Of a stretch of 64,000 nucleotides of DNA, positions 25,707-51,330 are shown one piece after another (within the stretch, counting starts at the first letter, position 1; each line of letters opens with the position of its first letter). The translations under genes were made by a program, and so were the position numbers. Source of the stretch: an uncultured Opitutaceae bacterium (GTDB lineage Bacteria; Verrucomicrobiota; Verrucomicrobiia; Opitutales; Opitutaceae); NCBI GenBank assembly GCA_903929355.1, contig CAIYUN010000003.1:1-64000 (forward strand), given 5' to 3'. The notes beneath the pieces were generated by a model that was not told the DNA's origin, did not search any database, and saw only the letters and a list, made by a program, of their open reading frames with translations.

Positions 25707-28262
25707 ATGAAAATATTCCGCTCCGCCAGCCTGTTCGCCAGCGTAGCCGCTATGGCCCTCTTGCTGCGGGAAGCCTCTGGCGCCAGCAGCCTGCCGGCCT
25801 ACACCGGCCAATTGACTGGGGAAGCGCCTCCCCCCTCCGAGCCGCTATCGCTTTGGTATCGCCAGCCGGCCACGGCCTGGACCAGCGCCCTTCCCGTGGG
25901 CAACGGCAAACAAGGCGCCATGGTGTTTGGCGGGATCGATTCCGAGCTGATATGCCTCAACGAGGACACCCTATGGAGCGGCGGTCCCTATTCGCCGGAA
26001 AATCCCGGCGCGCTCGCCGCCCTGCCGCAGGTGCGCCAGCTCCTCTTTGCCGGCCAGTATCGGCAGGCCGAAAGCCTCATCTCGCAAAGCATGATGGGAA
26101 AGCCCTCGACCGAGGCGGCGTACCAGCCGGTGGGCGACATCCAACTAACCTTCCCCAAGGTGGCAACGGCGGGGAATTATCGCCGGGAAGTGAATTTGCG
26201 CACCGCCACGGCCGTGACGCAGTTCACGTCCGAAGGGGTGACCTACACGCGTGAATTGTTCGCCAGCGGCCCGGACAACGTCCTGGTACTGCGGTTGACC
26301 GCCAGCAAGCCGGGGCAGATCAGTTTCAAGCTGTCGATGCAAACCGGTGAGACCATCACCAACAGCGACGGCACGGATGACACCTTCATCCTCAATGGGG
26401 CCAATCGCGCCTTTTCCGGCGTTCCCGGCGTGTTGCATTATCAGGCGCGGGCCAAAATCCTCCATGCCGGTGGCACGCTCACCAAGGGTCCGCGGTCGGC
26501 GCCAGTGGCAGCGGCGGCACCGGCCGCCGCCCCGGCGGCGGGAGCGGCGGCGCCGAGTCCCGGCGGAGCCCGTCGCGGGGGGCGTGGCGGTGGTGGCGGC
26601 CCGGGCTCGAGCCCGAGCACAATGGAATACGCGGTTGAAGGGGCTGACAGTGCCACGATTTTGATCGCGTCAGCCACCAACTACCAGAGCTTCCAGGACA
26701 CCTCGGGAGATCCAGCGGCGCTCGCCGGTGCCATCATCGACCAGGCGACGGCCAAAGGTTACGAGGCTTTGCGCAAGGATCAACTGGCGGACTACCAGAA
26801 ATTATTCGCCCGCGTGTCGCTTGATCTCGGGACCAGTGACGATGTCAAGCAGCCGACCGATGTGCGCATCCGGAATTACCCCAAGGGCACGGATATTTCG
26901 CTGCCGGCACTCTATTTCCAGTATGGGCGCTACCTTTTGATCGGCTCCTCGCGTCCCGGCGGCCAGCCCGCGAACCTGCAGGGCATCTGGAACAGCGACA
27001 CCAGCCCCTCCTGGGGCAGCAAGTTCACGATCAACATCAACACGGAAATGAACTACTGGCCCGCGAACACCACCAACCTGGGTGAGACCGTCGAGCCATT
27101 GATGGCGATGGTCGAGGACCTGGAAGTCACCGGGGCCAAGACGGCCAAGACGATGTACCATGCCCGCGGCTGGGTGGCCCACCACAACACCGACCTGTGG
27201 CGCGCCACGGCCCCGATCGACGGCCCCCAGTTCGGCATGTGGCCGCTCGGCGGCGCCTGGCTGTGCAATACGTTGTGGGATCGCTATGAATTCAGCCAAG
27301 ACCCGACGTTTCTGAAGCGATTGTATCCGGCCATGAAAGGCTCGGTCGAATTTTTCCTGGACACCCTGGTCGAGGAGCCGACCCACAAGTGGCTGGTCAC
27401 CAGTCCCAGCCTGTCACCGGAGAACCCCCATCCGGGCGGCGGATCCGTGGTTGATGGCCCCACGGCGGACATGCAGATGCTGCGCGATCTGTTCGCGCAC
27501 ACCCTCGAGGCAGGCCAAATCCTGGGGATCGATGCCGACTTCCGCACGCAGGTGGCCGCGACCCGCGCCCGGCTCGCCCCCAATCAGATCGGTTCGGTCG
27601 GCCAGCTGCAGGAATGGCTGCTGGACTGGGACACGACTGCGCCCGAGCCGCACAACCGGCACGTCTCCCACTTGTACGGACTTTATCCCGGCGAGGACAT
27701 TTCCCCGGCAAAGGACAAGACTTTGACGGCGGCCGTGAAGAAATCGCTCGAAATGCGGGGAGACGATGCCACCGGCTGGGGCCTGGGTTGGCGCTTGAAT
27801 CTCTGGGCGCACCTGCACGACGGGGCGCATGCGAACATCATTCTCCAGAATCTTCTCGCGGCGGCCAAGCCGGACGACAACTCCCGCGACCGCTCCGGGG
27901 TCTACAACAACATGTTCGACGCCCATCCGCCCTTCCAGATTGACGGCAATTTCGGCGGCACGGCCGGCATCGCGGAAATGCTGCTGCAATCAACCGCCCC
28001 GCATGCAGATCAACCGGCGGTGATCGAGCTCCTGCCCGCTTTGCCCCCCACGTGGACAGATGGCGGGGTCGCCGGCCTGGTTGCGCGCGGTGGATTTGAA
28101 GTCAGTGTCCGCTGGAAGGCGGGCAAGCTGGCCGGGGCCAAGATCAAGAACCTCCGGGCTCAAAAGGCTGCCGATATCACCTACGCCGGCAGAGTGGTCC
28201 ACGTGACCCTCGAGGCCGGTGCCTCGGCTTCCGTCGACGACCAGATGGCGGCTCGGTTTTAA
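25707..28262 (+). CDS. Glycoside hydrolase family 95 (alpha-L-fucosidase type)
   Basis: This 851-residue secreted enzyme has a signal peptide (about residues 1-25). The GH95 N-terminal domain starts at [21 protein letters not shown] and [11 protein letters not shown]. The (alpha/alpha)6 barrel carries [10 protein letters not shown] (E572) and [19 protein letters not shown] (D738), the regions that hold the catalytic acid and assisting residues in GH95. Family members remove alpha-1,2-L-fucose or alpha-L-galactose from plant or host glycans. An Ala/Pro plus RGG-rich insert (about 262-305) interrupts the N-terminal domain. It is the first gene of the locus, divergent from lacI. Confidence 0.93.
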
Positions 28263-28379
28263 CCCGCCAGGCTCAAACCGCCGCTTCCTGCCAATCCAGC
28301 CCACTTCCGGCAATCGATCATCCCCTGTCTCGCAAGCCGATCCCCCGCCGTAAACCCTTACCTGCTCGCCTCACCACCC

Positions 28380-30581
28380 ATGAACCTGTTGCCCCCCCGC
28401 AAGTATATTAAATTTCTGACCGGTCTGGCGCTGCTGGCCGCTTCGGTCGCAGGCTCCAATTTGGGTGCAGCCGTGACCCCGAAGGCCGCGACCGCAGCCA
28501 CCCCGGCCGCCAAAAACTGGACAGCCGACAACGGCAACGGGACCTACTCCAATCCGCTCTTCTACGAGGAGTTTGAGGATCCCGACGTCATCCGGGTGGG
28601 CAACGACTACTACATTGCCAGCACGACGATGCACATGAACCCCGCCGTGATCCTGATGCACTCCAAGGATCTGGTGAATTGGGAGTTGGCGGGTTATTGC
28701 TCGGACAAGCTGGATCTCGGTCCGGCTTACCGACTGGAAGGCGGCAATATCTATGGGAAGGGAATCTGGGCGCCCTGCATCCGTTACCACGCGGGCATGT
28801 TCTACGTGTTCTGCAACGTCAATGGCGCCGCCATGCAGGTGTACCGTTCCAAGGCCATCACCGGACCGTGGGAGCACAGTGAACTGCCCGGTCGCCACGA
28901 CCTGTCGGTGCTGTTTGACGACGACCTGGGCAAGATTTTCATCATTTCCGGAAACAGCAACCCCTACCCGATTGAGGAGATTGCGCCGGATCTCAAGTCG
29001 TATGTCCCCAATGTCCGCCACCAACTGGTGGTTCCCCAAGGCCAAAGATTTGGCGAAGGTCATCACCTCTACAAGGTCAATGGCAAGTACATCGACATTT
29101 CCGCCATCCCCGGCGGTGCGGTCAACCAGATGGTGGCCAAGGCCGACTCCATCGACGGACCATGGACCGTGACCACGATGGTCGAAGGCGAATCGTTGGG
29201 CATCACCAGCACCACCCCCGCGCGGGCCCAAGCCAACGATCGCGGGATCTGGCTGCACCAGGGCGGAATGGTCGACACCCCGTCAGGCGAATGGTGGAGC
29301 ATCATCATGTCGGACCACGGCAGTGCCGGCCGGATGGTCTCCCTGGTCCCGATCACCTGGGACGACGGCTTCCCGCTCATCGGTCTGCCCGGCAATTTGC
29401 GCAAAGCCCCCAATACCTGGGTCAAGCCCAACACCGGCGTGACCCAGGAGCCCACGCCGGCCTTTGTCCACGACGACAACTTTACCAGCGGCAAGCTGAA
29501 CAAACTGTGGCAATGGAACCATGTGGAAGACGACAGCAAGTGGTCGTTGACGGAAAAGCCCGGCGTCCTCCGCCTGCATTCGCTGCCGGCGGCCAACTTT
29601 TACAACGCCCGCAACACGCTCACCCAGCGGCCGCCGGCCCCGGAATCCATCATGACGGTCGGGCTGGATACCACCGGACTGACGGGTGGTGACACCGCCG
29701 GAATTGGGTTGTTGAGCACGCCCTATGCCTGGATCGGCGTGGTGAAGACCACCGACGGCACGGCACTGCAAATGTTTCAAGCGGCCGGCGGCGGCAATCG
29801 CGGCGGCGGCGGACGCAGAGGGGGAGCCGGCCGAGGCGCGGCCCCGGCGGCTGGAGCCGCTCCGGCCCCCGCCGCAGCCCCAGCCATCCAGCCGGTGGCC
29901 AGCGTGGCCAATCCCCCGGCCCACGTGTGGCTGCGGGTTCATTGCAATTTCGACACTGACCAAGCGGTGTTCAGCTGGAGCGCCGACGGCGTGACCTTCA
30001 CTCCCTTGGGGACACCCTTCACGACGATCTTCCAACTGACCACGTTCCAAGGGGTTCGCCCGGGGTTGTTCAATTTCAACACCGCGGGCCAGGCGGGCGG
30101 TTATGCCGACTTTGACCATTATGCCGTGGAAGAGCCGCGCGCGCGTGGCCTTGAGCGGGAAATCCCGGCCGGTAAGACCATCGCACTGACCAGCGGGGCC
30201 GACGGCAGCTTCCTGGCCGCCGACCTACAGAACAACACCTTGGTCGATGTCGTCCCGGATCAATCAGGAGCGACGCCGCCGAACGCCCGCTTCCAAGTCG
30301 TTGATGTGGGGTTGGGCCGGGTGGCGCTCAAAACCGCCGACGGCCGATTCGTCTCCGCCAATGAAGGCGGCACCTCGCTCAAGGTTGGCCCCAAACCCGG
30401 CGACACGGAGTCGTTCCAATGGGTGAATCTGATGCGCGGCGACACGATGCTCATGTCGTTGGTGAATCATCGCTACCTCGCCACCAAACCGAACCAGCCG
30501 GGGCCCGTGGCGGTGACCGCCACGGGCCCGAGTCCCGCCCGCAAGGGCGGCGCTGAGTTCAAATGGAAGATCGTTGACTGA
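28380..30581 (+). CDS. Glycoside hydrolase family 43 with C-terminal beta domains
   Basis: This 733-residue secreted enzyme has a signal peptide, then a GH43 five-bladed propeller (about residues 50-350). The opening NPLFYEEFEDPDVIRVGNDY holds the catalytic-base Asp, and EGGNIYGKGIWAPCIRY follows. A beta-sandwich of GH43_C2 type follows (about 360-590), then a beta-trefoil-like ending (about 595-733). Likely activities are beta-xylosidase or alpha-L-arabinofuranosidase. A Gly/Arg then Ala/Pro insert (about 467-513) splits the beta-sandwich. It lies 117 bp after the GH95 gene. Confidence 0.9.
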   Translation: MNLLPPRKYIKFLTGLALLAASVAGSNLGAAVTPKAATAATPAAKNWTADNGNGTYSNPLFYEEFEDPDVIRVGNDYYIASTTMHMNPAVILMHSKDLVNWELAGYCSDKLDLGPAYRLEGGNIYGKGIWAPCIRYHAGMFYVFCNVNGAAMQVYRSKAITGPWEHSELPGRHDLSVLFDDDLGKIFIISGNSNPYPIEEIAPDLKSYVPNVRHQLVVPQGQRFGEGHHLYKVNGKYIDISAIPGGAVNQMVAKADSIDGPWTVTTMVEGESLGITSTTPARAQANDRGIWLHQGGMVDTPSGEWWSIIMSDHGSAGRMVSLVPITWDDGFPLIGLPGNLRKAPNTWVKPNTGVTQEPTPAFVHDDNFTSGKLNKLWQWNHVEDDSKWSLTEKPGVLRLHSLPAANFYNARNTLTQRPPAPESIMTVGLDTTGLTGGDTAGIGLLSTPYAWIGVVKTTDGTALQMFQAAGGGNRGGGGRRGGAGRGAAPAAGAAPAPAAAPAIQPVASVANPPAHVWLRVHCNFDTDQAVFSWSADGVTFTPLGTPFTTIFQLTTFQGVRPGLFNFNTAGQAGGYADFDHYAVEEPRARGLEREIPAGKTIALTSGADGSFLAADLQNNTLVDVVPDQSGATPPNARFQVVDVGLGRVALKTADGRFVSANEGGTSLKVGPKPGDTESFQWVNLMRGDTMLMSLVNHRYLATKPNQPGPVAVTATGPSPARKGGAEFKWKIVD

Positions 30582-30684: not shown

Positions 30685-32898
30685 ATGAAATCTATCCGCC
30701 AGCTTGTATCCAACCGTGTCCTTGCCGGGCTCATTTCCCTGACCGGGGGCCTGCTCTTCACCAGCCAGACCTTTGCCGCCGACCCGGGCAAGATCGTCGT
30801 CCAGGCCGACCAGCCCGGGGCCAGCATTTCCCCGCTGTTCTACGGCCTCATGACCGAGGAGATCAATCATTCCTACGACGGCGGCCTTTACGGCGAGCTG
30901 ATTCAGAATCGAATCTTTAAAGATGCACCCCCGCGAGGTGGCGGTGGCCGGGGCGGTCGCCGGGGGGGGCAGCCTCCGGCTGCGGCCGGCGCGGCGGCGG
31001 CTCCGGCCGCGCCGACTCCTCCGCCGGTGCCTGTCGCCCCGGCCATCGCCCACTGGGCCAAGGTTGGTTCCGACGATTCACAAGGGAGCATCGCATTGGA
31101 CACGACGGATCCCGTCAACACCGTCGCCCTGACGACCAGCCTCAAACTTACCATTGCCGCAGTTGGCGCGAGCGGGCGCGTCGGGGTGGCCAACGACGGC
31201 TACTGGGGCATTCCCGTCAAGCCCGCCACAAACTATCAGGCGTCGTTTTACGCCAAGGGGTCCGATGGGTTCAGCGGTCCGCTGACCGTGGACATCGAGT
31301 CCAACGACGGCAAGACCACCTACGCCACCGCCACGGTGCCGGCGGTTGGGGGCCAATGGCAGCAATACAAGCTGACCTTGAAAACCGGCCAGGTTGCACC
31401 GACCGCCGACACCCGGCTCGTGATTTCGGGGGCGTCCAGAGGCACGGTCAACCTGAACCTGGTCTCGTTGTTTCCTCCCGTGTTCAACCCGCGCACCGGC
31501 GCGGCCTTGGGCGGCCGACCCGTCACCGGCTTCCGCAGTGACATCATGCAATTGCTGGCCGACATGAAGCCCGCCTTCCTCCGTTTTCCCGGTGGCAATT
31601 TCGTCGAGGGCCCCAATCTGAACGACCGCTACAATTTCAAGATCACGGTCGGCCCGTGGGAAGACCGCCCGGGTCATGGCGGCTCCTGGGGCTATCGGGC
31701 CACCGATGGCATGGGGCTGCTGGAATTCCTGGAATGGTGTGAGGAGCTCAAGATGGAACCCGTGCTCGCGGTGTGGGCCGGCTTGAACCTCAACAATGCC
31801 AACGGAGTCGTGACCGGCGACGCGCTGAAGCCCTACATTCAGGATGCACTGGATGAGATCGAGTATGTCTCGGGTCCCTCGACCTCCGAGTGGGGTGCGC
31901 GGCGGGCCAAGGACGGTCATCCGGCTCCCTTCAAGCTCACTTATGTCGAGATCGGCAACGAGGACAACCTCAACCAAGGCACCACCACCTACCGCGGACC
32001 CGAGGGCCGCTTCGCCCTGTTTTATAATGCGATCAAGGCGAAGCATCCCGACCTTCAAGTCATTGCCACCACGGATCCACAGGTGAAGCACGACGTCATT
32101 GACAATCATGCCTACATGTCCCCGGTTGACGCCATCCGCAATGCCCACCGTTACGACACCGCCAGCCGCACCGGACCCAAGGTATTTGAAGGTGAATGGG
32201 CCTCCCAGGAAGGCGGCCTCAGCAACCCTAACCGGCCACTGACTCCCACCTTTCAATGTGCGCTCTCCGACGCGGCCTTTCTGACTGGATTGGAGCGCAA
32301 CGCCGACCTCGTCATCATGTCGTGCTACGCCCCCCTGCTGACGCGGACGAACCCCGGCGGCTCGAATTGGAAAACCGACCTCATTGGCTACGATTCGCTG
32401 ACGGCGTACGCCTCACCGCCCTATTACGTGCAGAAGATGTTCAGCCATGCCCGCGGCGACCAGGTGTTGAAAGTGGCGTCCATCACGCCGCAATCGGTTG
32501 CGACGCCACCAGCGGCCCCGGTTCCCGCTGCTGCGCCGGCGGCCGGGGCGGCGCCCGCTCCCGGCGGCCGCCGGGGCGGACGGGGCGGCACCGCCGCTCC
32601 CAACTACAATGAACCGCTCTTTGCGGCCGCCAGCAGGGAGGACGCCACGGGCGACATCATCCTCAAAGTCGTCAATGTTTTTCCAGGCGATCAAGCCGAG
32701 ACCGTCGATCTCACCGGAGCCAAAGTATTGAAGAACGCCACCGGCCAGATCCTGGTCGGGCAGCCCGACGACACCAACAGTGTGACTGATCCCCTCCACG
32801 TCATTCCGAAGGACTTCGTCATCACCGACGCCAGCAGTTCGTGGAGCCACACCTTTCCCGGGAACTCCATCACGGTGATTCGCTTCAAGACCAAGTGA
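30685..32898 (+). CDS. Glycoside hydrolase family 51 alpha-L-arabinofuranosidase
   Basis: This 737-residue secreted protein has a signal peptide ending near FAA. An N-terminal GH51 strand follows (SISPLFYGLMTEEINHSYDG), then a CBM4/9-like domain, then the (beta/alpha)8 barrel. The acid/base is E426 in EIGNED and the nucleophile E504 in VFEGEWAS. It releases arabinofuranose from arabinoxylan or arabinan. Two RGG/AP-rich inserts (about residues 79-120 and 605-643) lie in surface-loop positions flanking the catalytic core. The leader ends GACCCACCC before the ATG, without a Shine-Dalgarno sequence. Confidence 0.93.
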   Translation: MKSIRQLVSNRVLAGLISLTGGLLFTSQTFAADPGKIVVQADQPGASISPLFYGLMTEEINHSYDGGLYGELIQNRIFKDAPPRGGGGRGGRRGGQPPAAAGAAAAPAAPTPPPVPVAPAIAHWAKVGSDDSQGSIALDTTDPVNTVALTTSLKLTIAAVGASGRVGVANDGYWGIPVKPATNYQASFYAKGSDGFSGPLTVDIESNDGKTTYATATVPAVGGQWQQYKLTLKTGQVAPTADTRLVISGASRGTVNLNLVSLFPPVFNPRTGAALGGRPVTGFRSDIMQLLADMKPAFLRFPGGNFVEGPNLNDRYNFKITVGPWEDRPGHGGSWGYRATDGMGLLEFLEWCEELKMEPVLAVWAGLNLNNANGVVTGDALKPYIQDALDEIEYVSGPSTSEWGARRAKDGHPAPFKLTYVEIGNEDNLNQGTTTYRGPEGRFALFYNAIKAKHPDLQVIATTDPQVKHDVIDNHAYMSPVDAIRNAHRYDTASRTGPKVFEGEWASQEGGLSNPNRPLTPTFQCALSDAAFLTGLERNADLVIMSCYAPLLTRTNPGGSNWKTDLIGYDSLTAYASPPYYVQKMFSHARGDQVLKVASITPQSVATPPAAPVPAAAPAAGAAPAPGGRRGGRGGTAAPNYNEPLFAAASREDATGDIILKVVNVFPGDQAETVDLTGAKVLKNATGQILVGQPDDTNSVTDPLHVIPKDFVITDASSSWSHTFPGNSITVIRFKTK

Positions 32899-32968
32899 GA
32901 TTCCCACCAAGGCTAATGATCCCCGGACGGTGGCCAGGCCGCAGAACACGAAAACAACCCCAAACCCC

Positions 32969-34957: not shown

Positions 34958-35003
34958 GTCGGCCGTCGCCATCGCCATTCACCCGGTCCCAAGCCAGCAC
35001 CTC

Positions 35004-40400: not shown

Positions 40401-40520
40401 TCCGTGAACCCATGGTCAAGGCCCCACCCCGCCAGCGCCCAAGGCATCGCTCTACTCCCTACGCAGTTTAAGCCTGCCCTCCGGGCTCCAAATTCATCGT
40501 TGTTCCATTCTGCTCCCCCC

Positions 40521-41696
40521 ATGCCCCCCAAAAAGACCTCCTCCCTGGTTTGCCTTGCCACCGCTGTCGCTTTGATGGCCGGCGCGGGATCTATGGTCGC
40601 CGCCGAGGCGGCGCCGGCCACGCCAACGACCCAGATCACTCCGGCCGCGCCCACTCCGCCGAATACTCCGATCAACGGCGCTCCAGCGCCGGGTGCACGC
40701 CGCGGAGGCCGTGGCGGCGGCGGTGCCATGACCCCCGAAGACCAGGCCGCCATTGCCAAACTCCTCACCCTGTCCATCTGGAAAGCCGGCGCCGGTGATG
40801 GCGACTACACCATCGCCCCGCCCTACACCCCGCCACAGGCGAACACGGCGGACGACCAGGTGCCGAAAGGCAAGGTCGTGACGTTCACGATGAACCTGGC
40901 CGACAGCAAATTCTATCCGCCCGCCAACCTTAGCGGCACCAAGCCCACGCGTGAGGTCGTGGTGTACATCCCGGCCCAATACGTCCCCGGCACGCCGGCC
41001 CCCCTATTGCTCACCCACGACGCGATGGGGGCGCACGACAATGTGCCGGCCCCCGTGCTCCCGATCTTACTGGACAACCTGATCGCCGCCAAAAGGGTGC
41101 CAGTCATGATCGCGGTCATGGTCATGCCGGGTGGGGGCGACGGCCCGGGCAGCGAACGCGGGCTCGAATACGACACGGTGTCGGGCAAGTATGCTGAGTT
41201 CATTGAGGCCGAGGTGCTGCCCCGAGTCGCCAAGGACTACAAGGTGACCTTCAGCAAGGACCCCTCGGCCCGAGCGACCTTGGGCGGGAGTTCGGGCGGT
41301 GCGGCCGCGATGTCAATGGCGTGGTTCCACCCCGAGCTCTACCACCGGGTGCTCGTGTTTTCCGGCACCTTCGTCAACCAGAAGGCGGGCCCCGAAGCCC
41401 CGCATGGCGCGTGGGAATTCCACGAAAACTTCATCCCCAAGACCACGCCGAACAAGCCGCTCCGCATTTTTCTTGAAGTCGGCCAAAACGACAATGGGGC
41501 CACCTCGTCCGGCTCCGGCATGCACAACTGGGTGCTGGCCAACCTGCACCTGGCCGAGGTGCTGAAAGCCAAGGGCTACCACTACCAGTTTGTTTATGCC
41601 CAGGCGGCCGGCCATGTGGACCGCCCGGTCCGCGCCTTCCTCCTCGCTCCCGCGTTGGAATGGCTCTGGCAAGACTACAAGCCGATGACTCCTTGA
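40521..41696 (+). CDS. Secreted alpha/beta-hydrolase esterase (esterase D/CE1-like)
   Basis: This 391-residue secreted esterase has a signal peptide ending near AAEA and a linker with [16 protein letters not shown] (about residues 52-67). The catalytic fold has the nucleophile S258 in GGSSGGAAAM and a candidate His in AAGHVDRP. It resembles enterochelin-esterase or feruloyl/acetyl esterase proteins that strip ester groups from hemicellulose. It is 22 bp before the GH3 gene. The leader is a run of C before the ATG at 40521. Confidence 0.85.
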   Translation: MPPKKTSSLVCLATAVALMAGAGSMVAAEAAPATPTTQITPAAPTPPNTPINGAPAPGARRGGRGGGGAMTPEDQAAIAKLLTLSIWKAGAGDGDYTIAPPYTPPQANTADDQVPKGKVVTFTMNLADSKFYPPANLSGTKPTREVVVYIPAQYVPGTPAPLLLTHDAMGAHDNVPAPVLPILLDNLIAAKRVPVMIAVMVMPGGGDGPGSERGLEYDTVSGKYAEFIEAEVLPRVAKDYKVTFSKDPSARATLGGSSGGAAAMSMAWFHPELYHRVLVFSGTFVNQKAGPEAPHGAWEFHENFIPKTTPNKPLRIFLEVGQNDNGATSSGSGMHNWVLANLHLAEVLKAKGYHYQFVYAQAAGHVDRPVRAFLLAPALEWLWQDYKPMTP

Positions 41697-41719: not shown

Positions 41720-44365
41720 ATGCGTTTCTTCCATTTGATCGCCATTTTCTGGGTCATCTCCACCCAACTCGCAACCACCCTCGATGCTCAGCGTGGTAAC
41801 CAAGGGTCCCTGTCGCAGACCCCGGTGCCAGTCGTCACCGACCCGGAGATCTACACCGACGCCACGCAGCCAGTGGCCAAACGCGTCGCCGACCTCGTGC
41901 GCCGCATGTCGCTGACGGAAAAGGCCCGTCAACTCCGCAATGGCGCGCCGGCCATTGGGCGACTCGGAGTGCCGGCCTACGACTACTGGAGCGAGGCCCT
42001 GCACGGCGTCGCCAACCAAGGCCTGGCCACCGTCTTCCCCCAAGCCATCGGCAACGGCGCGAGCTTTGATCCGGCCCTCGTCCGAGAGATGGGCCATGTG
42101 ATCGGCGTCGAGGGGCGGGGCAAGTTCAACGATGAGATCGCGAAGAACGGCGGCAGCCGGCAGTTCCGCGGTCTCACCTTCTGGGCACCCAACATCAATA
42201 TTTTTCGCGACCCGCGCTGGGGTCGCGGCCAGGAAACCTACGGAGAGGATCCGTTCCTGACGTCGCGCATGGGCGTTGCCTACATCGAGGCCCTGCAGGG
42301 TGACGACCCCAATTACTATCTCGCGCTGGCCTGCGCCAAGCACTACGCCGTCCATAGCGGTCCGGAGGCCACCCGGCACAGCGCCGACGTGACGCCGACC
42401 GAGGTGGATCTTTACGACACGTACCTGCCCCAATTCGAGGCCGCGGTGCGCGAAGCCAAGGTCGGGAGCGTGATGGGGGCCTACAACAGCGTCTACGGCG
42501 AGCCCGCCAACGCCAGCCAGCTGCTGCTGGGCGACAACCTGCGCGATCGCTGGGGCTTCCAGGGTTACGTGGTCTCTGACTGCGACGCCGTGACCGACAT
42601 TTACCAGAACCACCATTTTGTGGACACCGCGGCCGAGGCCGCCGCGCTCGCCATCAAAGCCGGTGACGATCTCGAGTGCGGCAGCACCTTCAACAGCCTC
42701 GTCGACGCCGTGCAGCAGGGTCTCGCCAGCGAGGCCGATCTGGACCGCGCACTCACGCGGGTGCTCACCTACCGCTTCAAACTGGGCTTGTTCGATCCGC
42801 CCGAGCAGGTGCCGTTCTCGAAGTATAGCCTCGACGACGTGGACACACCGGCGCACCACGCCCTGGCACTGAAGATGGCCCATGAGTCCATCGTGCTGCT
42901 CAAGAACAACGGGGTGCTGCCGCTGGACAAGGCGAAGGTCAGGAAGATTGCCGTCGTCGGCCCCAACGCCGACGCCCGGCTGATGCTGTACGGCAACTAC
43001 AACGGCACGCCGTCCAACTCGGTCACGATGTTGGAGGGGATTCGCGCCTGCTTTGGGGCCGCCCCGACCGACACCGCCAGCGCGGAGGACCTGGCAAGGG
43101 GCATCCATCGCTGGACCTCGCCTGGCGGCGTTGAAATTGCCGCCACGGCAGGCACCAACTATTCGCGCCAGGCGGCCGGCGGCCGCGGTGGGCGTGGCGG
43201 ACGGGCAGGCCAGGCGGCGCCGGCCGCCCCCGCCGTGCCCACCCTCGACGCCCTCCGCTCCGCCCTCACCCTCACCGAGGAACAAGCGGTCGCCATCGCC
43301 CCCGTGCTCAAGGTCATGGCCGACGACCAGGCTGCCATGAACGTGGCGCAGGATCGTTACACCACGATGGCCCGCAGCTTCAGCGCCCGCATCACCGCCG
43401 CCGTGCCGCTGACCACCGCACAAAAGATCCAACTGGCCACCTTGGCAAACGACCTGACCATCCGCGAGACCCACAGCGGCGCCGGACTGGGCGGTCGCGC
43501 CCCCGGGATGCTGGTCCTGGCCGCCCCGCAACAGGGCGGGCCGGACTCGATGGACTTCAAGTCCGCCCTCGCGCTCGCCCAAGAGGCCGACGTCGTCCTT
43601 TTCTTTGGCGGCATCAACGCCGATGGGTTTGAAGGCGAGCAACGCGACCGTACCGCGATCGAGCTCCCGGCCGCGCAAACGGAGTTGCTTCAGGCGCTGA
43701 ACGCGTCGGGCAAAACGGTGGTTTTTGTCAACTGCAGCGGCAGCGCGATGGCGATGCCGTGGGAGAGCGAGAACCTTCCCGCCATCGTTCAGGCGTGGTA
43801 TCCCGGCGAAGCTGGCGGCACCGCCGTGGCCGACGTGCTGTTCGGCGACTACAATCCCGCCGGGCGCCTGCCGGTCACGTTCTACCGCGGGACCGCCGAT
43901 CTGCCGGATTTTGCCGACTACCACATGAAGAACCGCACCTACCGCTTCTTCACCGGCGCGCCCCTCTACGCCTTCGGCCACGGACTCAGCTACACCACGT
44001 TCACCTACGCTGGCGCCAGGGTCGCCGCACCGCAGGTGGCCGCCGATGGCACGATCAAGGTGAGTGTGGAAGTCACGAACACCGGCGCACGCGAAGGCGA
44101 CGAGGTCGTGCAGGTCTACGCCAAACAAGTCGGCCTGGTGGATCCTAACCGCGCCCAGCAAAGTCTGGTCGGCTTCCAGCGCGTGTCGGTGGCCAAAGGG
44201 CAAAAAGCCACGGTGGTAATCGGCATACCCGTCTCCGCGTTACGTCACTGGGATTCGGCGAAAAAGGACTATGAGGTGGATGCCGCCAGCTACGAGCTGC
44301 GCGTCGGTGCCGCCTCCGACGACATCCGCGCCACCGCCACCGTGAAGGTGGCCGCGAAAGGTTGA
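41720..44365 (+). CDS. Glycoside hydrolase family 3 (beta-xylosidase type) with LTxxQ insertion
   Basis: This 881-residue secreted GH3 enzyme has a signal peptide, a barrel domain (ALHGVAN, PNINIFRDPRWGRGQETYGEDP), and nucleophile D287 in VVSDCDAV. The sandwich domain (HESIVLLKNNGVLPL) has the acid/base candidate in GFEGEQRDR (E638/E640), and a fibronectin-III-like end follows. The sequence is closest to plant/bacterial beta-xylosidases. Between the sandwich strands, residues about 482-610 form an extra module. It has an RGG/AP linker, then a helical region with two LTxxQ motifs (LTEEQ 518-522, LTTAQ 564-568) as in Spy/CpxP chaperones. Confidence 0.92.
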   Translation: MRFFHLIAIFWVISTQLATTLDAQRGNQGSLSQTPVPVVTDPEIYTDATQPVAKRVADLVRRMSLTEKARQLRNGAPAIGRLGVPAYDYWSEALHGVANQGLATVFPQAIGNGASFDPALVREMGHVIGVEGRGKFNDEIAKNGGSRQFRGLTFWAPNINIFRDPRWGRGQETYGEDPFLTSRMGVAYIEALQGDDPNYYLALACAKHYAVHSGPEATRHSADVTPTEVDLYDTYLPQFEAAVREAKVGSVMGAYNSVYGEPANASQLLLGDNLRDRWGFQGYVVSDCDAVTDIYQNHHFVDTAAEAAALAIKAGDDLECGSTFNSLVDAVQQGLASEADLDRALTRVLTYRFKLGLFDPPEQVPFSKYSLDDVDTPAHHALALKMAHESIVLLKNNGVLPLDKAKVRKIAVVGPNADARLMLYGNYNGTPSNSVTMLEGIRACFGAAPTDTASAEDLARGIHRWTSPGGVEIAATAGTNYSRQAAGGRGGRGGRAGQAAPAAPAVPTLDALRSALTLTEEQAVAIAPVLKVMADDQAAMNVAQDRYTTMARSFSARITAAVPLTTAQKIQLATLANDLTIRETHSGAGLGGRAPGMLVLAAPQQGGPDSMDFKSALALAQEADVVLFFGGINADGFEGEQRDRTAIELPAAQTELLQALNASGKTVVFVNCSGSAMAMPWESENLPAIVQAWYPGEAGGTAVADVLFGDYNPAGRLPVTFYRGTADLPDFADYHMKNRTYRFFTGAPLYAFGHGLSYTTFTYAGARVAAPQVAADGTIKVSVEVTNTGAREGDEVVQVYAKQVGLVDPNRAQQSLVGFQRVSVAKGQKATVVIGIPVSALRHWDSAKKDYEVDAASYELRVGAASDDIRATATVKVAAKG

Positions 44366-44446: not shown

Positions 44447-46144
44447 ATGACGCCCCCCAGATTGCCGGCCATTTTCCCTCTGTTTCTGGCTTCCGCCTTC
44501 GGCCAACCGCTCCCGGCGCCCGCCACCACCCCGCCGGGGCCGATTCCCTATGCCACCATGCAGATGATTGCGCCTGGCGATTCCGAGGCCGTCATCGCCG
44601 AAAAGTCGGCCAAGGTCCTGCCGCGACCCGCGCAGACCGACTGGATGCGGTTGGAGCGGACCTTTTTCCTCCATTTCGGCGTGAACACCTTCAACGGCGT
44701 CGAGTGGGGCAGCGGCCACGAAAATCCGTCGATTTTCAACCCCACCCAATTCGACGCCAACCAATGGTTGGACGTCATGCAGGGGTTCGGCGGCAAGATG
44801 ATCGTGCTCGTCTGCAAGCACCATGACGGCTTTTGCATGTGGCCGACCCTCTACACGCCACACTCGGTCGCATCCAGCCCGTGGCGTGAGGGCAAGGGTG
44901 ACGAAGTGAAGGAAGTGGCGGACGCCGCGCGTGCGCACGGAATCAAACTGGGCGTCTACCTCTCGCCGGCGGATCTTTTCCAATTGCGCACGAATCCGAC
45001 GAACCCGGCCGGATATTATGGCAACAACAGCGCCGAGGTTGCCTCCACCATACCCACCGATCCCGCCAGCTTCAAGACCGATCCCACCAAAGGCCGCACT
45101 CCGCCGGCCGGCGGCCCCAGCTTCTCGTACGTAGTCGATGATTACAACCGTTACTTCCTGAACCAACTCTACGAGTTGCTGACTCAATACGGCCCGGTGC
45201 AAGAGGTCTGGTTCGACGGGGCCAACCCCAACCAAACCGTCAAGGAGACCTACAACTACGCGGCGTGGTATGATTTGATCCGCCATCTGCAACCCAATGC
45301 GATCATCTTTGGCAAAGGTCCCGACGCGCGCTGGGTCGGCACCGAAAGCGGCTACGGGCGCACGACGGAGTGGAGTGTCATCCCCCTCCCCCAGCCGCCC
45401 GACACCTTCCGTTGGCCCGACATGACGGCCAAGAATCTTGGCAGCCGCGCCAAACTCACTCCCGGGTCGACGCTCTGGTGGTACCCGGCCGAGACGAATG
45501 TCACCTTGCTGGCCAACGGCCAGTGGTTTTGGTCGCCGACGAAGCGCCCCAGGAATTTGGCGCAATTGGTGGACATCTTCTTCTCCTCCGTGGGGCGAAA
45601 CGCGAATTTGATTTTGAACCTTTCCCCCGATACGCGCGGGCTCATCCCAGACGATCAAGTCGCAACCTTGCGCCGCCTGTCGCAGGTGGTGAACTACACC
45701 TTTGCGAAGGATTGCACCAGCGGCGGCCGGCTTACGGCCGACAACTCCAACCCGGCCAACGGCGCGGCGCTGGCCTTGGACGGCAACCTTGACACTTGGT
45801 GGGAGGCGGCGCCGGGGCATACGACCGGCGCGTTGACCTTGACGCTGCCGAACCCGGTCACCTTTGACATCGTTTCGTTGCAGGAAGGAGTGGATCACCG
45901 CGGCCAACGCATCGAATCATTTGCCATCGACACCTGGAATGGATCCGACTGGGTCCCGGTGGAAAAAGTGGCCTCAGATGAACTCACCACGGTCGGGCAT
46001 CGAAGGCTGGTGCGCCTCCAGTCTCCCGTGACCACCAGCCAGGTGCGCCTTCGCATCCTCAGCTCACGGCTGGAGCCGACCCTGGCCAAGATGGGACTCT
46101 TCAATCAGATTGCGGCGGATGCCGTGATCGGACCAACGCCATGA
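44447..46144 (+). CDS. Glycoside hydrolase family 29 alpha-L-fucosidase with F5/8C domain
   Basis: This 565-residue secreted retaining fucosidase has a GH29 barrel (FFLHFGVNTFNGVEWGSGHE, KHHDGFCMWPTLYTPHSV) and nucleophile D257 in VWFDGANPN. A C-terminal galactose-binding F5/8-type C domain (about residues 430-555) may hold the glycan. It acts on alpha-1,3/1,4/1,6-fucosyl groups. Its stop overlaps the start of the second GH29 (ATGA), so the two are made together. The leader before the ATG is nearly all C. Confidence 0.92.
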   Translation: MTPPRLPAIFPLFLASAFGQPLPAPATTPPGPIPYATMQMIAPGDSEAVIAEKSAKVLPRPAQTDWMRLERTFFLHFGVNTFNGVEWGSGHENPSIFNPTQFDANQWLDVMQGFGGKMIVLVCKHHDGFCMWPTLYTPHSVASSPWREGKGDEVKEVADAARAHGIKLGVYLSPADLFQLRTNPTNPAGYYGNNSAEVASTIPTDPASFKTDPTKGRTPPAGGPSFSYVVDDYNRYFLNQLYELLTQYGPVQEVWFDGANPNQTVKETYNYAAWYDLIRHLQPNAIIFGKGPDARWVGTESGYGRTTEWSVIPLPQPPDTFRWPDMTAKNLGSRAKLTPGSTLWWYPAETNVTLLANGQWFWSPTKRPRNLAQLVDIFFSSVGRNANLILNLSPDTRGLIPDDQVATLRRLSQVVNYTFAKDCTSGGRLTADNSNPANGAALALDGNLDTWWEAAPGHTTGALTLTLPNPVTFDIVSLQEGVDHRGQRIESFAIDTWNGSDWVPVEKVASDELTTVGHRRLVRLQSPVTTSQVRLRILSSRLEPTLAKMGLFNQIAADAVIGPTP

Positions 46145-48534
46145 AACTTTTCGCCAAGCTGGGAGAGACTCCCTTGCGCCGCGTCTGGGCCGGTTTGTCA
46201 TTGGTCTGGATTTTTGTACTTTTGACCGTTTCCGCGTGCCAACATTCCAATTCCGCTGGTGGGAATCACCGCTACGAGGCGGCCGACGCCCAACTCATTG
46301 GCGGGGCGTCCAAGGTCGCCGCGCCGGCGGTATCGGGTCGCATGTTGGTCAGCATCAATAGGACCGGCCAGGGGATCCGGTTCAGCGAACTGCCGGCCGC
46401 CGGCAAACTGGCGATTCGCTACGCGTCGATGCAGGTCGGGACGATCAGCGTCGTCGTCAACGACCAGCCGCCACGCATGGTGAACATTCATTCATCGGGG
46501 TCGCTGACCAGTTCCTTTCTCCATGCCATCATTGATGTCGCCATTCCCGCCGGGGCCATGGTGACCATCAGTCAGTCGATCAACGATGTTGCAGCGAACA
46601 TCGATCAGATCGTGGTCGGCAGCGGAGACCTGGGGCTGCCGCCGGACATCTGGAACCTGCCGCCCCTGCCGGTGGCCGCCGGTCCCTATGCTCCCGATTG
46701 GAAGGCCATCAGCCGACTCTACACCGTGCCGGAATGGTGGCGGGACGCCAAGTTCGGCGCGTGGGCGCACTGGGATCCACAATCCATGCCCGAACAGGGT
46801 GACTGGTATTCGCGCGGGATGTATATCCAGGGGAACGCACAGTATAATTTCAACCTCAAGACCTTTGGCCATCCGTCGGTTTACGGGTACAAGGACATCA
46901 GCCACAACTGGGTGATTGACCGGTGGAAGCCCGAGGAGCTGATGGGATTGTATGTCGAAATGGGGGCGCGCTATTTCATGGCGATGGGGGCGCACCATGA
47001 CAATTTTGACTGCTGGGATTCGACCTACCAGCCGTGGAACTCCGTCCGGGTCGGCCCGAAGGTGGACATCGTCGGCACCTGGGAGAAAATTGCCCGCGAA
47101 CATGGCCTGCGTTTCGGCATCGGATTTCACAACACACCGGCGCGAACCTGGGGACAGTTTATGCCGGTGCGATACACCAGCGACCGGTCCGGGCCGATGC
47201 AGGGGGTGCCCTACGATGCGCTCCAGACGATTCTGGACGGCAAAGGAAAATGGTGGGAAGGCATGGATCCGGTGGATCTTTACGGGCCGGTCCACGACAA
47301 CAAGGATCCGTTGCATTCGCCGTTCGCCAACCAGTTCATGTGGCGGGTGGATGACGCCATCAACAAGTATCATCCTGACGTGATCTATTTCGACGAACAC
47401 GCGGGGGATTCCCAGATGGACCTGGGCGTCCACATGGGGCTCGGCTTCCTCGCGCCCCCGCTGGCCGCGAATTTCTACAACAAGTCTCTGCAGTGGAACC
47501 AAGGGAAGATGGAGGTGGTGCTGAACCTCAAGGGCGTCGGCGGGCGTTACAACAGCTTCCAAAACAGCCCCGCCCTGCTGCCCTACGTTGACCGTGCGTT
47601 GGTCAAGAGTAACGAAGCCGTCATCGAATCGCAAATTACGGCTTACCCCTTCCAGACCGAGACCAGTATCGCCGACTGGCACTATAAAACCGGGCAGAAA
47701 TACCTGGATTCCGGAAGCGTGGTCAGGGCTCTGATGCAGAACGTATGCCGCAACGGGACGATGCTGCTCAACCTCACCCAGCACGGTCGCGGCGACCTCG
47801 ATCCTGACGTGATCGCCATCTGCAAGGATGTCGGGGCCTGGTTGAAGATCAACGGCGAGGCCGTTTATGCCTCCCGTCCGTTTGAAGTCTCCGGCGACAA
47901 CACCGTCTGTTACACCCGCAACCAAGGCAGGGTCTATGCCACGCTCCTGAACTGGCGGGGCGGGGCCGTCAAACTCAACGCCCTGCGCGCCGGAGGCACG
48001 ACCTTGGGCCGGGTGTCCAAAGTTGAGCTGCTCGGTTCCGATGTCCCCCTGTCGTTTGTTCAGGACGGACAGGGGCTGACGGTGAAGCCCGGCGGAGTGG
48101 TGCCGCCCCTGCCTGGAATAGCCAACCAGACGCTGGCCTCGGGCTTCCGGGTGCTGCGGATCACGCATGACCAGGGTTGGATTAACGACGACGACCCGGG
48201 GGTGGTCGCCCCCGGATGGGTTCGCCGCTGCAACCTCGGCACCGGCGACTTCAACAACGACCTCACCCTGAGCGACACGCCCGGCGATGTCTGGAGCTGT
48301 TCGTTCGTCGGCCGCAGCGTAAAGGTGATCGCCCCGAAGGAAGCGGGCGCCGGAAGGATGGAGGTCCAGATTGATGGTCAAAGCCGTGCGACCACGGATT
48401 TGTCCACCACTGGCCCGCGCCTGCCCGAGCAGATCGTGGGTGAAGTCACTGGACTGACGCCGGGCAAACATACCATCAATCTAGTCAATCGCGGCCCCGG
48501 CCCCGTGGCCGTGGATGCCTTGATTGTCCGCTGA
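46141..48534 (+). CDS. GH29-like alpha-L-fucosidase lipoprotein
   Basis: This 797-residue protein has a lipobox (LLTVSACQ) that implies membrane anchoring. An N-terminal beta-sandwich (about residues 40-160) resembles CBM6/35 modules. A GH29 barrel follows: WWRDAKFGAWAHWDPQSMPE, MAMGAHHDNFDCWDSTYQPW, and nucleophile D418 in VIYFDEHAG. Further beta domains lie after residue 560, with a second binding-module-like end (DDDPGV...PGW). The distant barrel differs from the first GH29, so substrate specificity probably differs. It is translationally coupled to the first. Confidence 0.85.
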   Translation: MKLFAKLGETPLRRVWAGLSLVWIFVLLTVSACQHSNSAGGNHRYEAADAQLIGGASKVAAPAVSGRMLVSINRTGQGIRFSELPAAGKLAIRYASMQVGTISVVVNDQPPRMVNIHSSGSLTSSFLHAIIDVAIPAGAMVTISQSINDVAANIDQIVVGSGDLGLPPDIWNLPPLPVAAGPYAPDWKAISRLYTVPEWWRDAKFGAWAHWDPQSMPEQGDWYSRGMYIQGNAQYNFNLKTFGHPSVYGYKDISHNWVIDRWKPEELMGLYVEMGARYFMAMGAHHDNFDCWDSTYQPWNSVRVGPKVDIVGTWEKIAREHGLRFGIGFHNTPARTWGQFMPVRYTSDRSGPMQGVPYDALQTILDGKGKWWEGMDPVDLYGPVHDNKDPLHSPFANQFMWRVDDAINKYHPDVIYFDEHAGDSQMDLGVHMGLGFLAPPLAANFYNKSLQWNQGKMEVVLNLKGVGGRYNSFQNSPALLPYVDRALVKSNEAVIESQITAYPFQTETSIADWHYKTGQKYLDSGSVVRALMQNVCRNGTMLLNLTQHGRGDLDPDVIAICKDVGAWLKINGEAVYASRPFEVSGDNTVCYTRNQGRVYATLLNWRGGAVKLNALRAGGTTLGRVSKVELLGSDVPLSFVQDGQGLTVKPGGVVPPLPGIANQTLASGFRVLRITHDQGWINDDDPGVVAPGWVRRCNLGTGDFNNDLTLSDTPGDVWSCSFVGRSVKVIAPKEAGAGRMEVQIDGQSRATTDLSTTGPRLPEQIVGEVTGLTPGKHTINLVNRGPGPVAVDALIVR

Positions 48535-48800: not shown

Positions 48801-49073
48801 ATGAAAACATCCCTATTCTTCAAACCCAATAATGGTTCGGCCGCGCGTGTTGCGGCGTCTGCGTTGGGCCTCGCTGCGATTTTGTCCGGTTGGGCGGCAT
48901 CGGCTGCGGCGTCCGCGGCTCCCATACCCGTTGAGGGATCCAAGATGGGGGCGGCCGCGGACAAAGTCATCACCGCAGAAGACGTAACCGCCGAGAAGGT
49001 GGAAAGCTCGATTCCGGTGGCCGCCGCGACCGCACCGCCAACTCCCGGGACCGCCACCTCGCTGAAGTTCTAG
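48801..49073 (+). CDS. Exported N-terminal fragment, followed in frame by a BNR/copper-binding ORF
   Basis: This 90-residue ORF has a long signal peptide (about residues 1-36) and a mature stretch with VITAEDVTAEKVESSIPVAA, then an Ala/Pro-rich end. It stops at TAG (49071-49073). The same frame then runs on without another stop to 49973. The simplest reading is one gene of about 390 codons with a nonsense codon, which would join the signal peptide to the sialidase-like domain. Alternatively it is the front of a different, deleted esterase gene. Confidence 0.5.
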   Translation: MKTSLFFKPNNGSAARVAASALGLAAILSGWAASAAASAAPIPVEGSKMGAAADKVITAEDVTAEKVESSIPVAAATAPPTPGTATSLKF

Positions 49074-49115
49074 TCCCAGCTCGCTCCTGGCGACACGGCG
49101 GCCCGAGCTCTGGCC

Positions 49116-49973
49116 GTGTTTGACGACTCCACCGCGCTGGTGGCATTCCGCGAGCGCGCTGTGGACGGTACGCAGGATGTGCATTTTTCCATCTGGGAGA
49201 ACAACCGGTGGTCGGAGGCGCGCGTTCTCGTGCCCGAAGGTTGGATCCCTGATCTCACGCCGACCGCGGCACCCGCGCTCGACGCGCGGGACGGCCGCGC
49301 CGCCGCCGCTTGGTTCACCGGCGCCGACCACGATCCGCGGGTTGAGCTTTCCCTTTCCAGCGATGCTGGTCATGTGTGGCAGATCCCGCTGCGCCTGAGC
49401 GAAGGCCGGCCCGAGGCGGCTGTGGCCGTCGCGCTCCTTCGCGACGGCGCAGTGCTGGCCGTGTGGCAGGAGGGCACCCAGCTGCTGCTGCGGCGTGTGT
49501 CCCCGCAGAACGACCGCGGCCCCGTGACGCCCGTCGGGGAAAGTCGCACACCATTTGACTTGCCTCAGCTCACCGTGCTCGCCGACCACGACAACACCGC
49601 GCCGGTGCGCGTCGCCCTCGCCTACCACGCCGACGGCAACGCTATGGCGACAGTCCTCACCCTCCCCCCGCTCACCGAGTTGGCGAAAGGCGACAGCGTT
49701 TGTGCGTGCGGCCAGGCCACGGCGCAGCTCCGACGGGGCTTTGAGCTGCACGGCACCATCGTCTCGCTCAACGCCGTCGAGGGCAAGGCTGTCGCAAAAA
49801 TCGAGGCCATGCCCGGCGTGATGCCCGCAAAGACCATGGCGTTCCGGGCCGAAGCTGCCAACCTCAAGTCCCTCACGGCCGGTCAGAAATTTCTGGGCCG
49901 GATGGAAGAGCGCGAAGCCGAATGGTGGCTCTTCGACGTGCGTCTACTGGCGGAGCCGGCGGTGAGACGATGA
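49116..49973 (+). CDS. BNR/sialidase-like protein with C-terminal CusF-type copper-binding domain
   Basis: This 285-residue frame holds BNR-like strands (STALVAFRERAVDGTQDVHF, LSLSSDAGHVWQIPLRLSEG) of a beta-propeller. A C-terminal CusF/SenC-associated domain follows (about residues 210-280, with GTIVSLNAVEGKAVAKIEAM and PGVMPAKTMAFRAE). It has no signal peptide of its own; the in-frame ORF ending 42 bp upstream supplies one. A GTG start at 49116 is possible but would make a protein trapped in the cytoplasm. It is probably the remainder of an interrupted gene with no evident role in glycan breakdown. Confidence 0.55.
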   Translation: MFDDSTALVAFRERAVDGTQDVHFSIWENNRWSEARVLVPEGWIPDLTPTAAPALDARDGRAAAAWFTGADHDPRVELSLSSDAGHVWQIPLRLSEGRPEAAVAVALLRDGAVLAVWQEGTQLLLRRVSPQNDRGPVTPVGESRTPFDLPQLTVLADHDNTAPVRVALAYHADGNAMATVLTLPPLTELAKGDSVCACGQATAQLRRGFELHGTIVSLNAVEGKAVAKIEAMPGVMPAKTMAFRAEAANLKSLTAGQKFLGRMEEREAEWWLFDVRLLAEPAVRR

Positions 49974-49976
49974 TGC

Positions 49977-50129: not shown

Positions 50130-50286
50130 GGGCGATGAGGCCGGCCCGAAGCCCCAAAAGCAAGGGGCGAGCGCTCCTGCCAACGCTGGGCTTTTTTGAC
50201 AATACTGGCGCGGTGGTTTCCTTCTCATGCTTGACCGGTCATCGCGGGTTGCCTCAAGATTGAAATTTCCTTCCCCCTCCCCGACC

Positions 50287-51330
50287 ATGAATGCCACCCT
50301 ACTCAGGCTCGTCTTTGCAGCCGGCGCCTTGCTCCTTGCCGTCGTTGGCCGCGCCCAGGAAAAGCCGGAAGCGCCGGACAAGAATTTTTACGTCTTCCTT
50401 TGCTTCGGGCAGTCCAACATGGAGGGTTTCCCCGGCATCCCGGCGGCAGAAAAAGTGGGCGTGGACAGCCGGTTCCAAGTGCTGGCGGCGGTCGATTTCA
50501 AACCCGGTGGCCGTTACACCGGCCCGGAACGCAAGGCCGGCGAGTGGTATCCCGCCATCCCGCCTCTCTGTCGCTCCGACAGCGGCATGAGCCCCGCCGA
50601 CTATTTCGGCCGCACTGTGGTGGCCAACACCCCGAAAGAAATTCGTGTGGGCGTCGTCAGCGTCGCAGTCGCCGGCTGCAAAATCGAGATGTTCGACAAG
50701 GTCGGCTTCCAAGCCTACATGGCCACCTGGAAGCCGGGGGATTTCAAGGTAAACATCGCCAAGCAATACGGCAACAACCCCTACCAACGCTTGGTGGACC
50801 TGGGCAAGCAGGCCCAGAAGGTCGGTGTCATCAAAGGCATCCTTCTCCATCAGGGTGAGTCCAACAACGGTGAAAGGCAATGGCCCGACAAGGTGAAGGC
50901 CATTTACGGGGATTTGCTGAAGGATCTCGACCTCAAGGCCGAGGACGTCCCGCTGCTCGTCGGCGAGTTGGTGCCCAAGGACCAGGGTGGTGCCTGTGCG
51001 GGCATGAACACCATCATTGATGAGCTCGCCAATACCATCCCGACCGCCCATGTGATCTCGGCGGTCGGCTGCACCCCGGCCAACAATCTTCATTTCGACC
51101 CCGCCGGCTATAAGGAACTGGGCACCCGTTACGGTGTAGCCATGATCCCGCTGCTGGGCTACAAGCCACTCGACCGCCCACCGGTCTTCGCGCCGCCGAA
51201 GGCGGCCGCTCCAGCGCAGGGCGGACGTGGGCGGGGACAGGCTTCACCGCCTGCCGCCGTCACGCCCGTGTCAGCCGCCCCCGTGCCGGCGACAGCCGCG
51301 CCTGCTTTAGGTGAATCCGCGCCGAAGTAG
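50287..51330 (+). CDS. Sialate-O-acetylesterase-family (SASA) carbohydrate acetylesterase
   Basis: This 347-residue secreted SGNH-type esterase has a signal peptide (about residues 1-23). The nucleophile is S43 in FGQSNMEG, and conserved HQGESNN and CTPANNLHFDPAGYKELG (catalytic Asp/His region) follow. Such enzymes (PF03629, CE6-like) deacetylate xylan or pectin, which suits the neighbouring glycosidases. From about residue 304 a tail rich in Ala/Pro with QGGRGRGQ extends past the fold, like the inserts of the other locus enzymes. It ends the locus. Confidence 0.9.
   Translation: MNATLLRLVFAAGALLLAVVGRAQEKPEAPDKNFYVFLCFGQSNMEGFPGIPAAEKVGVDSRFQVLAAVDFKPGGRYTGPERKAGEWYPAIPPLCRSDSGMSPADYFGRTVVANTPKEIRVGVVSVAVAGCKIEMFDKVGFQAYMATWKPGDFKVNIAKQYGNNPYQRLVDLGKQAQKVGVIKGILLHQGESNNGERQWPDKVKAIYGDLLKDLDLKAEDVPLLVGELVPKDQGGACAGMNTIIDELANTIPTAHVISAVGCTPANNLHFDPAGYKELGTRYGVAMIPLLGYKPLDRPPVFAPPKAAAPAQGGRGRGQASPPAAVTPVSAAPVPATAAPALGESAPK

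Follow-up and report, generated by a model that had tools for sequence, protein, structure and literature searches.

The element described here is a set of arginine- and glycine-rich (RGG) stretches, joined to alanine- and proline-rich (Ala-Pro) stretches, in six secreted enzymes of one polysaccharide locus of an uncultured Opitutaceae bacterium. The locus lies in a window of 64,000 nucleotides, positions 1 to 64,000 of contig CAIYUN010000003.1 (assembly GCA_903929355.1). These stretches are probably flexible, disordered, cationic linkers that form part of a system of accessory modules on secreted enzymes for polysaccharide breakdown. At the centre of this system stands a helical module of about 75 residues that bears two LTxxQ motifs and resembles one half of Spy, a periplasmic chaperone; set between RGG/Ala-Pro linkers, it is joined to the N terminus, a loop, or the C terminus of many different enzymes. 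The window genome would have lost most of its modules, with some linkers staying where relatives carry the module. As for function, the module might serve as an in-built holdase or shield of the Spy type, so that the enzyme tethered to it stays soluble and active in the presence of plant polyphenols and other denaturing substances; the linkers would give reach and perhaps bind anionic or aromatic material.

In the window the module lies in a GH3 enzyme (41720..44365; on the plus strand, like the parts of its insert and the five other enzymes with stretches) that Pfam and an AlphaFold2 model show to have a long insert in its C-terminal alpha/beta domain. Past its RGG/Ala-Pro part (43169-43249), this insert runs on into a helical domain of about 75 residues with two LTxxQ motifs. 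A first linker, which includes the RGG and Ala-Pro (43058..43225, GH3 residues 447-502), is followed by the LTxxQ-like module (43226..43456) and by a second linker (43448..43549, residues 577-610). Both linkers are modelled at a confidence score (pLDDT) below 50, and the RGG/Ala-Pro part is presumably disordered. For the module, the GH3 model (m47dcc90ee06a) predicts helices at residues 509-516, 520-539, 544-561, and 566-581; modelled alone, it gives four helices as well, with core pLDDT mostly 70-85. Profile A1, built from eight copies of the module with the window insert among its rows, finds this insert at E 1.5e-28 (matches were counted at E up to 0.01). The same loop in GH3 family relatives holds nothing, a short loop (with RGG in paralogue L103 of the window genome, G000), or a PA14-like domain, the last confirmed by Pfam in four GH3s of other groups. 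Elsewhere in G000, a stand-alone exported protein (L060:14317-14838) consists of the same domain with RGG at both ends. A protein search of G000 with the GH3 insert alone missed this homologue and profiles recovered it, one built from seven GH3 inserts doing so at E 4e-17 among 586 G000 proteins. Across 72 aligned modules, the box at one end, L-x-LT-x2-Q, is 92-100% conserved, and the second box, LT-x2-Q-K at the other end, has L in 94%, T in 63%, Q in 99%, and K in 72%. There are nearly no aromatic, Cys, or His residues.

What is this module related to? Searched against PDB, the module profile matches the Spy structures 5wnw, 3oeo, 5wo1, and 3o39 at E 2.6e-4 to 8.7e-4 over its second half; in sequence, it is the second half of Spy that the module resembles. 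The top PDB matches were leucine-rich-repeat proteins aligned over many short stretches, which were taken as artefacts, and TAL-type repeats rank after Spy. Foldseek and VIA-align searches with the predicted module gave weak helical matches only, the best at Z 6.9 (5io8); CnrX, a metal sensor that we take to be an LTxxQ relative, came at Z 4.5, and Spy was absent from the lists, an absence that carries no weight as evidence. NCBIfam gave only weak, unconvincing matches at the module. Like the Spy/CpxP LTxxQ proteins (PF07813), the module has two LTxxQ boxes and an all-helical model and is exported; it differs from them in being shorter, in scoring below the Pfam cut-off, and in being fused to or inserted in enzymes between RGG/Ala-Pro linkers. 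Spy itself is a dimeric cradle, positive in charge (PMC8144458).

The genomes compared are mostly drafts, those of the five other members of the genus (G001-G005) being incomplete, and L numbers denote loci taken from these genomes or from G000. Profile A1 has 14 matches in G001, 19 in G002, 15 in G003, 20 in G004, and 14 in G005; G000 has three, two of them strong (the window GH3 and the stand-alone protein) and one weak. G028 has five, other genomes of the family have zero to three, and 20 genomes from other families of the order have none. Among 387 genomes drawn from the phylum, with up to 15 candidates scored in each, 14 have a match at E 1e-6, G001-G005 not being among those listed, and all matches besides the window GH3 lie in open frames of 134-391 residues.

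Which enzymes carry the module? Part of the profile matches were fetched and 87 distinct ones read. The 74 at E <1e-8 form 22 clusters with the module masked, and the 67 open reading frames (ORFs) of at least 250 residues (loci L138-L207; one from G000, one from G028) form 15, with orthologues from different genomes being non-independent. Each of the 15 clusters was named via at least one representative scanned with Pfam: glucuronoyl esterase, PF00756 esterase (two clusters), GDSL esterase (two), GH62, GSDH, GH10, AXE1, tannase/feruloyl esterase, DUF7133 with cytochrome c, GH8, DUF1592-type, GH2, and GH3. The module sits near the N terminus in 34, internally in 25, and near the C terminus in 8 of these hosts, which are six-frame ORFs with starts that are possibly too long, and 45 of the 67 have a signal peptide by the simple rule applied here. 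An RGG stretch, scored with a looser window than the strict one used for the genome samples below, lies within 45 residues of the module in 47 of the 67 hosts, compared with 10 of 792 control windows taken from these proteins. By eye, about 13 of the other 20 have flanks less strictly rich in G/A/P/R, and 7, among which are all four of cluster 6, have none. Adjacent module genes form runs of five in G002 contig 32 (L171) and four in G005 contig 139 (L194). The former (L171:1629-9266) reads GDSL, AXE1, glucuronoyl esterase, GDSL, glucuronoyl esterase, each with its own module, three of them scanned and two cluster-named. The system is slightly wider than the genus, since G028, which lies outside it, carries a glucuronoyl-esterase-cluster host and a neighbouring module ORF on its contig 157 (L164). 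A stand-alone, secreted RGG-module-RGG protein is also present in G028 (L144).

How did so many enzymes come by the module, and why does G000 have so few? Because the module tree clusters by host (26 changes against a minimum of 17 and a shuffled mean of 49, from few columns and with many open forks), inheritance together with the enzyme seems to account for most copies. One 100/99 clade of the tree nevertheless mixes copies from GH62 enzymes and esterases; copies therefore also moved between unrelated enzymes. A tree of isoleucyl-tRNA synthetase places G003 outside a clade of G000, G004, G002, G005, and G001 (99/98), and loss in G000 is the simpler reading because all five surrounding genomes are module-rich. 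That the window genome lost most modules, kept some linkers, and is without part of the module-bearing xylan enzymes has fair support. Its PF00756 esterase (40404..41696, likely start 40521 by eye; Pfam) carries Ala-Pro then RGG at 40599-40724 and no module, and the sister-genome homologues read signal peptide, LTxxQ module, RGG, esterase at the same place. A GH3 paralogue in G000 (L053:13079-15442) likewise keeps RGG or RGG/Ala-Pro with no module and is 74-76% identical to the module-bearing L200 and L205; another GH3 (L053:10624-13047) has RGG/Ala-Pro at the same loop. The GH2 homologue of G000 (L075) leaves its contig after RGG and was not counted as a module-free linker. Relatives of a GH10 host and of a glucuronoyl-esterase host were not found in G000 at E 1e-20, in a search run without a positive control. 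The locus in G005 that is syntenic with the window reads GH95, GH43, a module-bearing GH62-type gene (named through its cluster mate L179), GH51; the window reads GH95, GH43, GH51.

The original prediction had placed RGG/Ala-Pro inserts in six unrelated secreted enzymes of the window and none in its GH127 and second GH43. Translation recovers all of this, with seven stretches, and Pfam supports the families. Besides the GH3 and the esterase, the carriers are a GH95 enzyme (25707..28262; Ala-Pro then RGG loop, 26490-26609), a GH43 with a C-terminal GH43_C2 (28380..30581; RGG then Ala-Pro loop inside the GH43_C2 region, 29781-29897), a GH51-type arabinofuranosidase (30685..32898; RGG-Ala-Pro loop at 30925-31047 and Ala-Pro-RGG loop at 32497-32598), and a SASA-type carbohydrate esterase (50227..51330; C-terminal tail of GGRGRG and Ala-Pro, 51196-51321). 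The stretch of the PF00756 esterase adjoins its signal peptide, that of the SASA-type enzyme forms the C-terminal tail and is weak in its RG part, and the others are internal. The translations of GH127 (32930-34957) and of the second GH43-like protein (35004-36197; weak GH32/GH43 matches) have no such stretch.

Among relatives, place and make-up of the inserts are kept between orthologues, and their order and length turn over. The GH51 orthologues in G003, G004, and G005 are 73-76% identical to the window enzyme, and all three keep the second loop. G004 and G005 also have the complete first loop, of which the truncated G003 sequence shows just the Ala-Pro end; in G004 and G005 both loops stand in the same places, with another order and length. 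In GH51 paralogues from the family (about 50% identity) the first loop is missing, and the second site holds a short RRGG/PA stretch or none at all. All four same-genus GH43 sequences that span the entire loop of that enzyme (G001, G002, G003, G005) retain it, again altered in order and length, and a G004 fragment has only its Ala-Pro end. The original prediction named clade-specific linkers in orthologues as an outcome that would speak against it, and this is partly what is seen: the GH51 and GH43 loops are kept within the genus, and the GH95 loop is absent from relatives in the genus.

Are the stretches peculiar to this locus? A sample of G000 (40 stretches, 774 kb, 546 called genes) was scored with a strict window of 12 residues holding at least 10 G or R, at least 6 G, and at least 2 R; genes came from a simple caller and a crude signal-peptide rule, so that class counts are approximate. 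RGG occurs in 14 of 167 secreted-like proteins, 5 of 304 others, 0 of 50 membrane proteins, and 0 of 25 cut genes, an enrichment of secreted-like proteins over the rest of the sample (p=0.0008). The 14 include a doubtful gene call (L047), a protein with a probable membrane anchor (L042:7191), and a gene at a contig end (L075). Among the secreted-like proteins of the window, 5 of 15 pass, with the SASA tail and the second GH51 stretch failing, and the window is enriched over the sample (Fisher p=0.011). The feature is thus genome-wide and not special to the window locus. This goes part of the way toward the other outcome that was to count against the idea, a motif common to all secreted proteins of the genome, though 14 of 167 is far from all. 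Pfam, run on 10 of the 19 RGG-positive sample proteins, names a second GH3, GH2, a PcRGLX-type protein, a GH28-like protein, a PL4-type rhamnogalacturonan lyase, an oligogalacturonate-lyase-like protein, GSDH, a BD-FAE-type esterase, a molybdopterin enzyme, and a non-secreted kinase-WD40 protein.

The bias toward secreted-like proteins, and the many stretches that stand alone in G000, are what would be expected if the RGG/Ala-Pro stretches were themselves the tag, cationic or polyphenol-binding, with the module secondary. Salivary tannin-binding proteins are Pro-rich, and their Pro/Gly-rich, disordered make-up is like that of the linkers, to which they have no homology. We consider this version quite unlikely, since the GH3 model gives the stretches low confidence, their sequence varies freely, and in the sister genomes they are often neighbours of a conserved helical domain. 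The original idea of a shared tag survives in part: unrelated secreted enzymes do share an accessory element, and RGG/Ala-Pro in sister genomes mostly flanks one repeated domain. The RGG/Ala-Pro itself looks like a linker, not a tag, judging by the low GH3 model confidence and the turnover of order and length, and it is not confined to the locus.

RGG stretches of RNA-binding proteins share the Arg-Gly-rich make-up; here they are joined to Ala-Pro in exported enzymes without nucleic-acid-binding domains, and Pfam finds no RNA-binding domain among the six window hosts, all of them hydrolases. G000 does hold a likely classical case (L042:15371-15733), RRM-like by eye with a Gly/Arg-rich tail. 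Besides the kinase-WD40 protein, two non-secreted RGG-positive proteins (L042) have Gly/Arg-rich tails and look RNA-related by eye. A small protein with a likely membrane anchor (L042:7191-7823) has RGG on both sides of a helical-looking stretch unlike the LTxxQ module. At two G000 genes (L075:3-2852 and L050:3-866) the contig ends inside an RGG-rich stretch or shortly after one; it may be that stretches of this kind disrupt the assembly, so that further modules stay hidden.

Could the stretches have arisen at the DNA level, from a GC-rich mini-repeat that spread across the locus in frame? They are alike as peptides, and the insert stretches are 76-88% GC. The seven inserts nevertheless have 44 ten-base words in common, against a mean of 78 (standard deviation 20) for synonymous recodings of the same peptides, and 198 of 200 recodings share at least as many. 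Because the DNA words common to the inserts do not exceed what synonymous codons alone would give, spread of a DNA mini-repeat is not supported, and we regard this part of the original prediction as extremely improbable. Searched as a DNA pattern, ten G/R codons occur scarcely more often in G000 than the reversed control (269 versus 249), and such counts were rejected as a detector since they do not discriminate there. Samples of two genomes from the same family with equal GC also show no strict RGG in 74 secreted-like proteins (G007, 0 of 39; G019, 0 of 35).

A related explanation is that RGG/Ala-Pro stretches are nearly neutral, low-complexity expansions in the loops of a GC-rich genome and that the module merely lands in tolerant places. 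Order and length do turn over fast between orthologues, the GH3 loop also takes PA14 or nothing, and stretches occur in secreted proteins outside the locus. Of 171 pairs of adjacent Gly codons, 78 are identical, slightly more than the 39% that codon frequency predicts, a surplus of the kind that mild slippage would leave. The comparison with the equal-GC genomes (0 of 74 against 14 of 167, p=0.006) makes this account unlikely; so do the codons, since Gly codon usage is more varied inside RGG windows than in the remainder of those genes (GGT 30% versus 12%), the scarcity of shared DNA words, the constancy of make-up and place between orthologues, and the strong coupling to the module.

Several observations weigh against linkers of a module system being what the window enzymes carry. 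For most window inserts, including the SASA tail, the link to the module is by analogy, and no module was found at the GH51 or GH43 insert sites in any relative seen. In none of the five other genomes of the genus does the best GH95 relative have the GH95 loop; identity to these relatives is only 49-52%. In module-rich G002, a random 400 kb gave RGG in only 2 of 94 secreted-like proteins (p=0.058 against G000). All four GDSL hosts of cluster 6 have the module with no RGG flank, and 9 of the 67 hosts lack a signal peptide by the rule used, with another 13 cut at the start. As to loss in G000, the argument rests on one protein tree, in which monophyly of the genus is weakly supported (68/40). 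The sampled G000 host homologues L052, L069, and L074 keep neither RGG nor module, with L045 keeping only Ala-Pro. Finally, Pfam LTXXQ (PF07813) scores below its gathering score of 24.3, at 14.9 bits for the window insert and 19.0 and 17.5 for two hosts, with no match listed for the other host proteins scanned with Pfam; because of this the module is called Spy-like by its sequence and not filed as a member of the family. It is also near-neutral, with a mean net charge of about -1, in contrast to the positive cradle of Spy (PMC8144458).

If the module system is real, what does it do? A built-in holdase or polyphenol shield is the single most likely function, a tentative and weakly supported choice, with docking close behind. 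It was made by analogy with Spy and because many hosts belong to families acting on xylan, its esters, and lignin-carbohydrate bonds. Tannin induces Spy, and spy mutants are tannin-sensitive (PMC8144458). Alternatively, the module could be a docking or anchoring tag, dockerin-like in use and with RGG/Ala-Pro as its linkers, that gathers hemicellulose enzymes via a common partner; this partner might be another copy of the module, the stand-alone protein of signal peptide, RGG, module, and RGG, or a cell-surface receptor. One small module on many enzymes, in varied positions and in runs of neighbouring genes, would suit such a role, as would the stand-alone secreted protein with RGG at both ends in G000 and G028 and the fact that Spy itself is dimeric (PMC8144458). 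We hold docking to be possible but doubtful: every ORF among the 87 distinct matches examined has a single module, so that nothing scaffold-like appears among them (no cohesin search was made), and among the collected ORFs of G001-G005 the only small one at E <1e-8 is L195 (G001, 152 residues), which has no RGG-rich ends, with these genomes incomplete and their matches partly fetched.

Reuse of one small domain on many secreted hydrolases is also seen in the accessory modules of carbohydrate-active enzymes, such as dockerins, carbohydrate-binding modules (CBMs), and the PA14 domain of GH3, and the present module fills the loop that in GH3 relatives holds PA14. It is of the LTxxQ type, unlike dockerins and CBMs, and matches no family of either: Pfam found no dockerin in the 20 proteins scanned and no CBM over the module in the window proteins, the GH3 insert, and the hosts. 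Bacterial glucuronoyl esterases such as OtCE15A have inserted regions, Reg1-3, which form ridges near the active site (PMC6069808); that the module is one of these was considered and rejected, as the module is also found on other enzyme families. We found no report of this module-linker system in the open-licence literature of PubMed Central, and the accessible text of PMC5615132 contains no mention of "low complexity" or "linker."

Other genes of the window deserve brief description. By eye, 36273-38906 encodes a DUF1592/planctomycete-cytochrome-like protein inside the polysaccharide locus, and 38884-40326 is its likely partner, exported by the twin-arginine (Tat) route; in G003, protein L201, with DUF1592-type Pfam domains, bears the LTxxQ module. 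Two alpha-L-fucosidase-family proteins follow the GH3 (44447-46144 and 46141-48534), neither with an RGG stretch. Within 48801-49970, a short ORF that looks secreted by eye (48801-49073) stands just before a longer one with no signal peptide (49116-49970), and the two are possibly one gene split in two.

Overall, it is conceivable, though we advance it with reserve, that an Opitutae lineage turned a Spy-like chaperone domain into a general enzyme module, shuffled onto many xylan and lignin-carbohydrate enzymes as a holdase or shield or as a docking tag, and that the window genome shows this system in decay, with linkers left behind. Accessory modules set where secreted enzymes act and how long they last. 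If the proposal is true, secreted enzymes would have a third kind of equipment, in addition to carbohydrate-binding modules and dockerins, and a chaperone-like domain with tell-tale linkers, common to the esterases and glycosidases of one pathway and present in runs of adjacent genes with a copy each, would be a new kind of enzyme accessory. Such a module could be transplantable, making lignocellulose enzymes sturdier in tannin- or lignin-rich feeds. For the uncultured Opitutae, the module is an annotation handle for the enzymes of the hemicellulose pathway.

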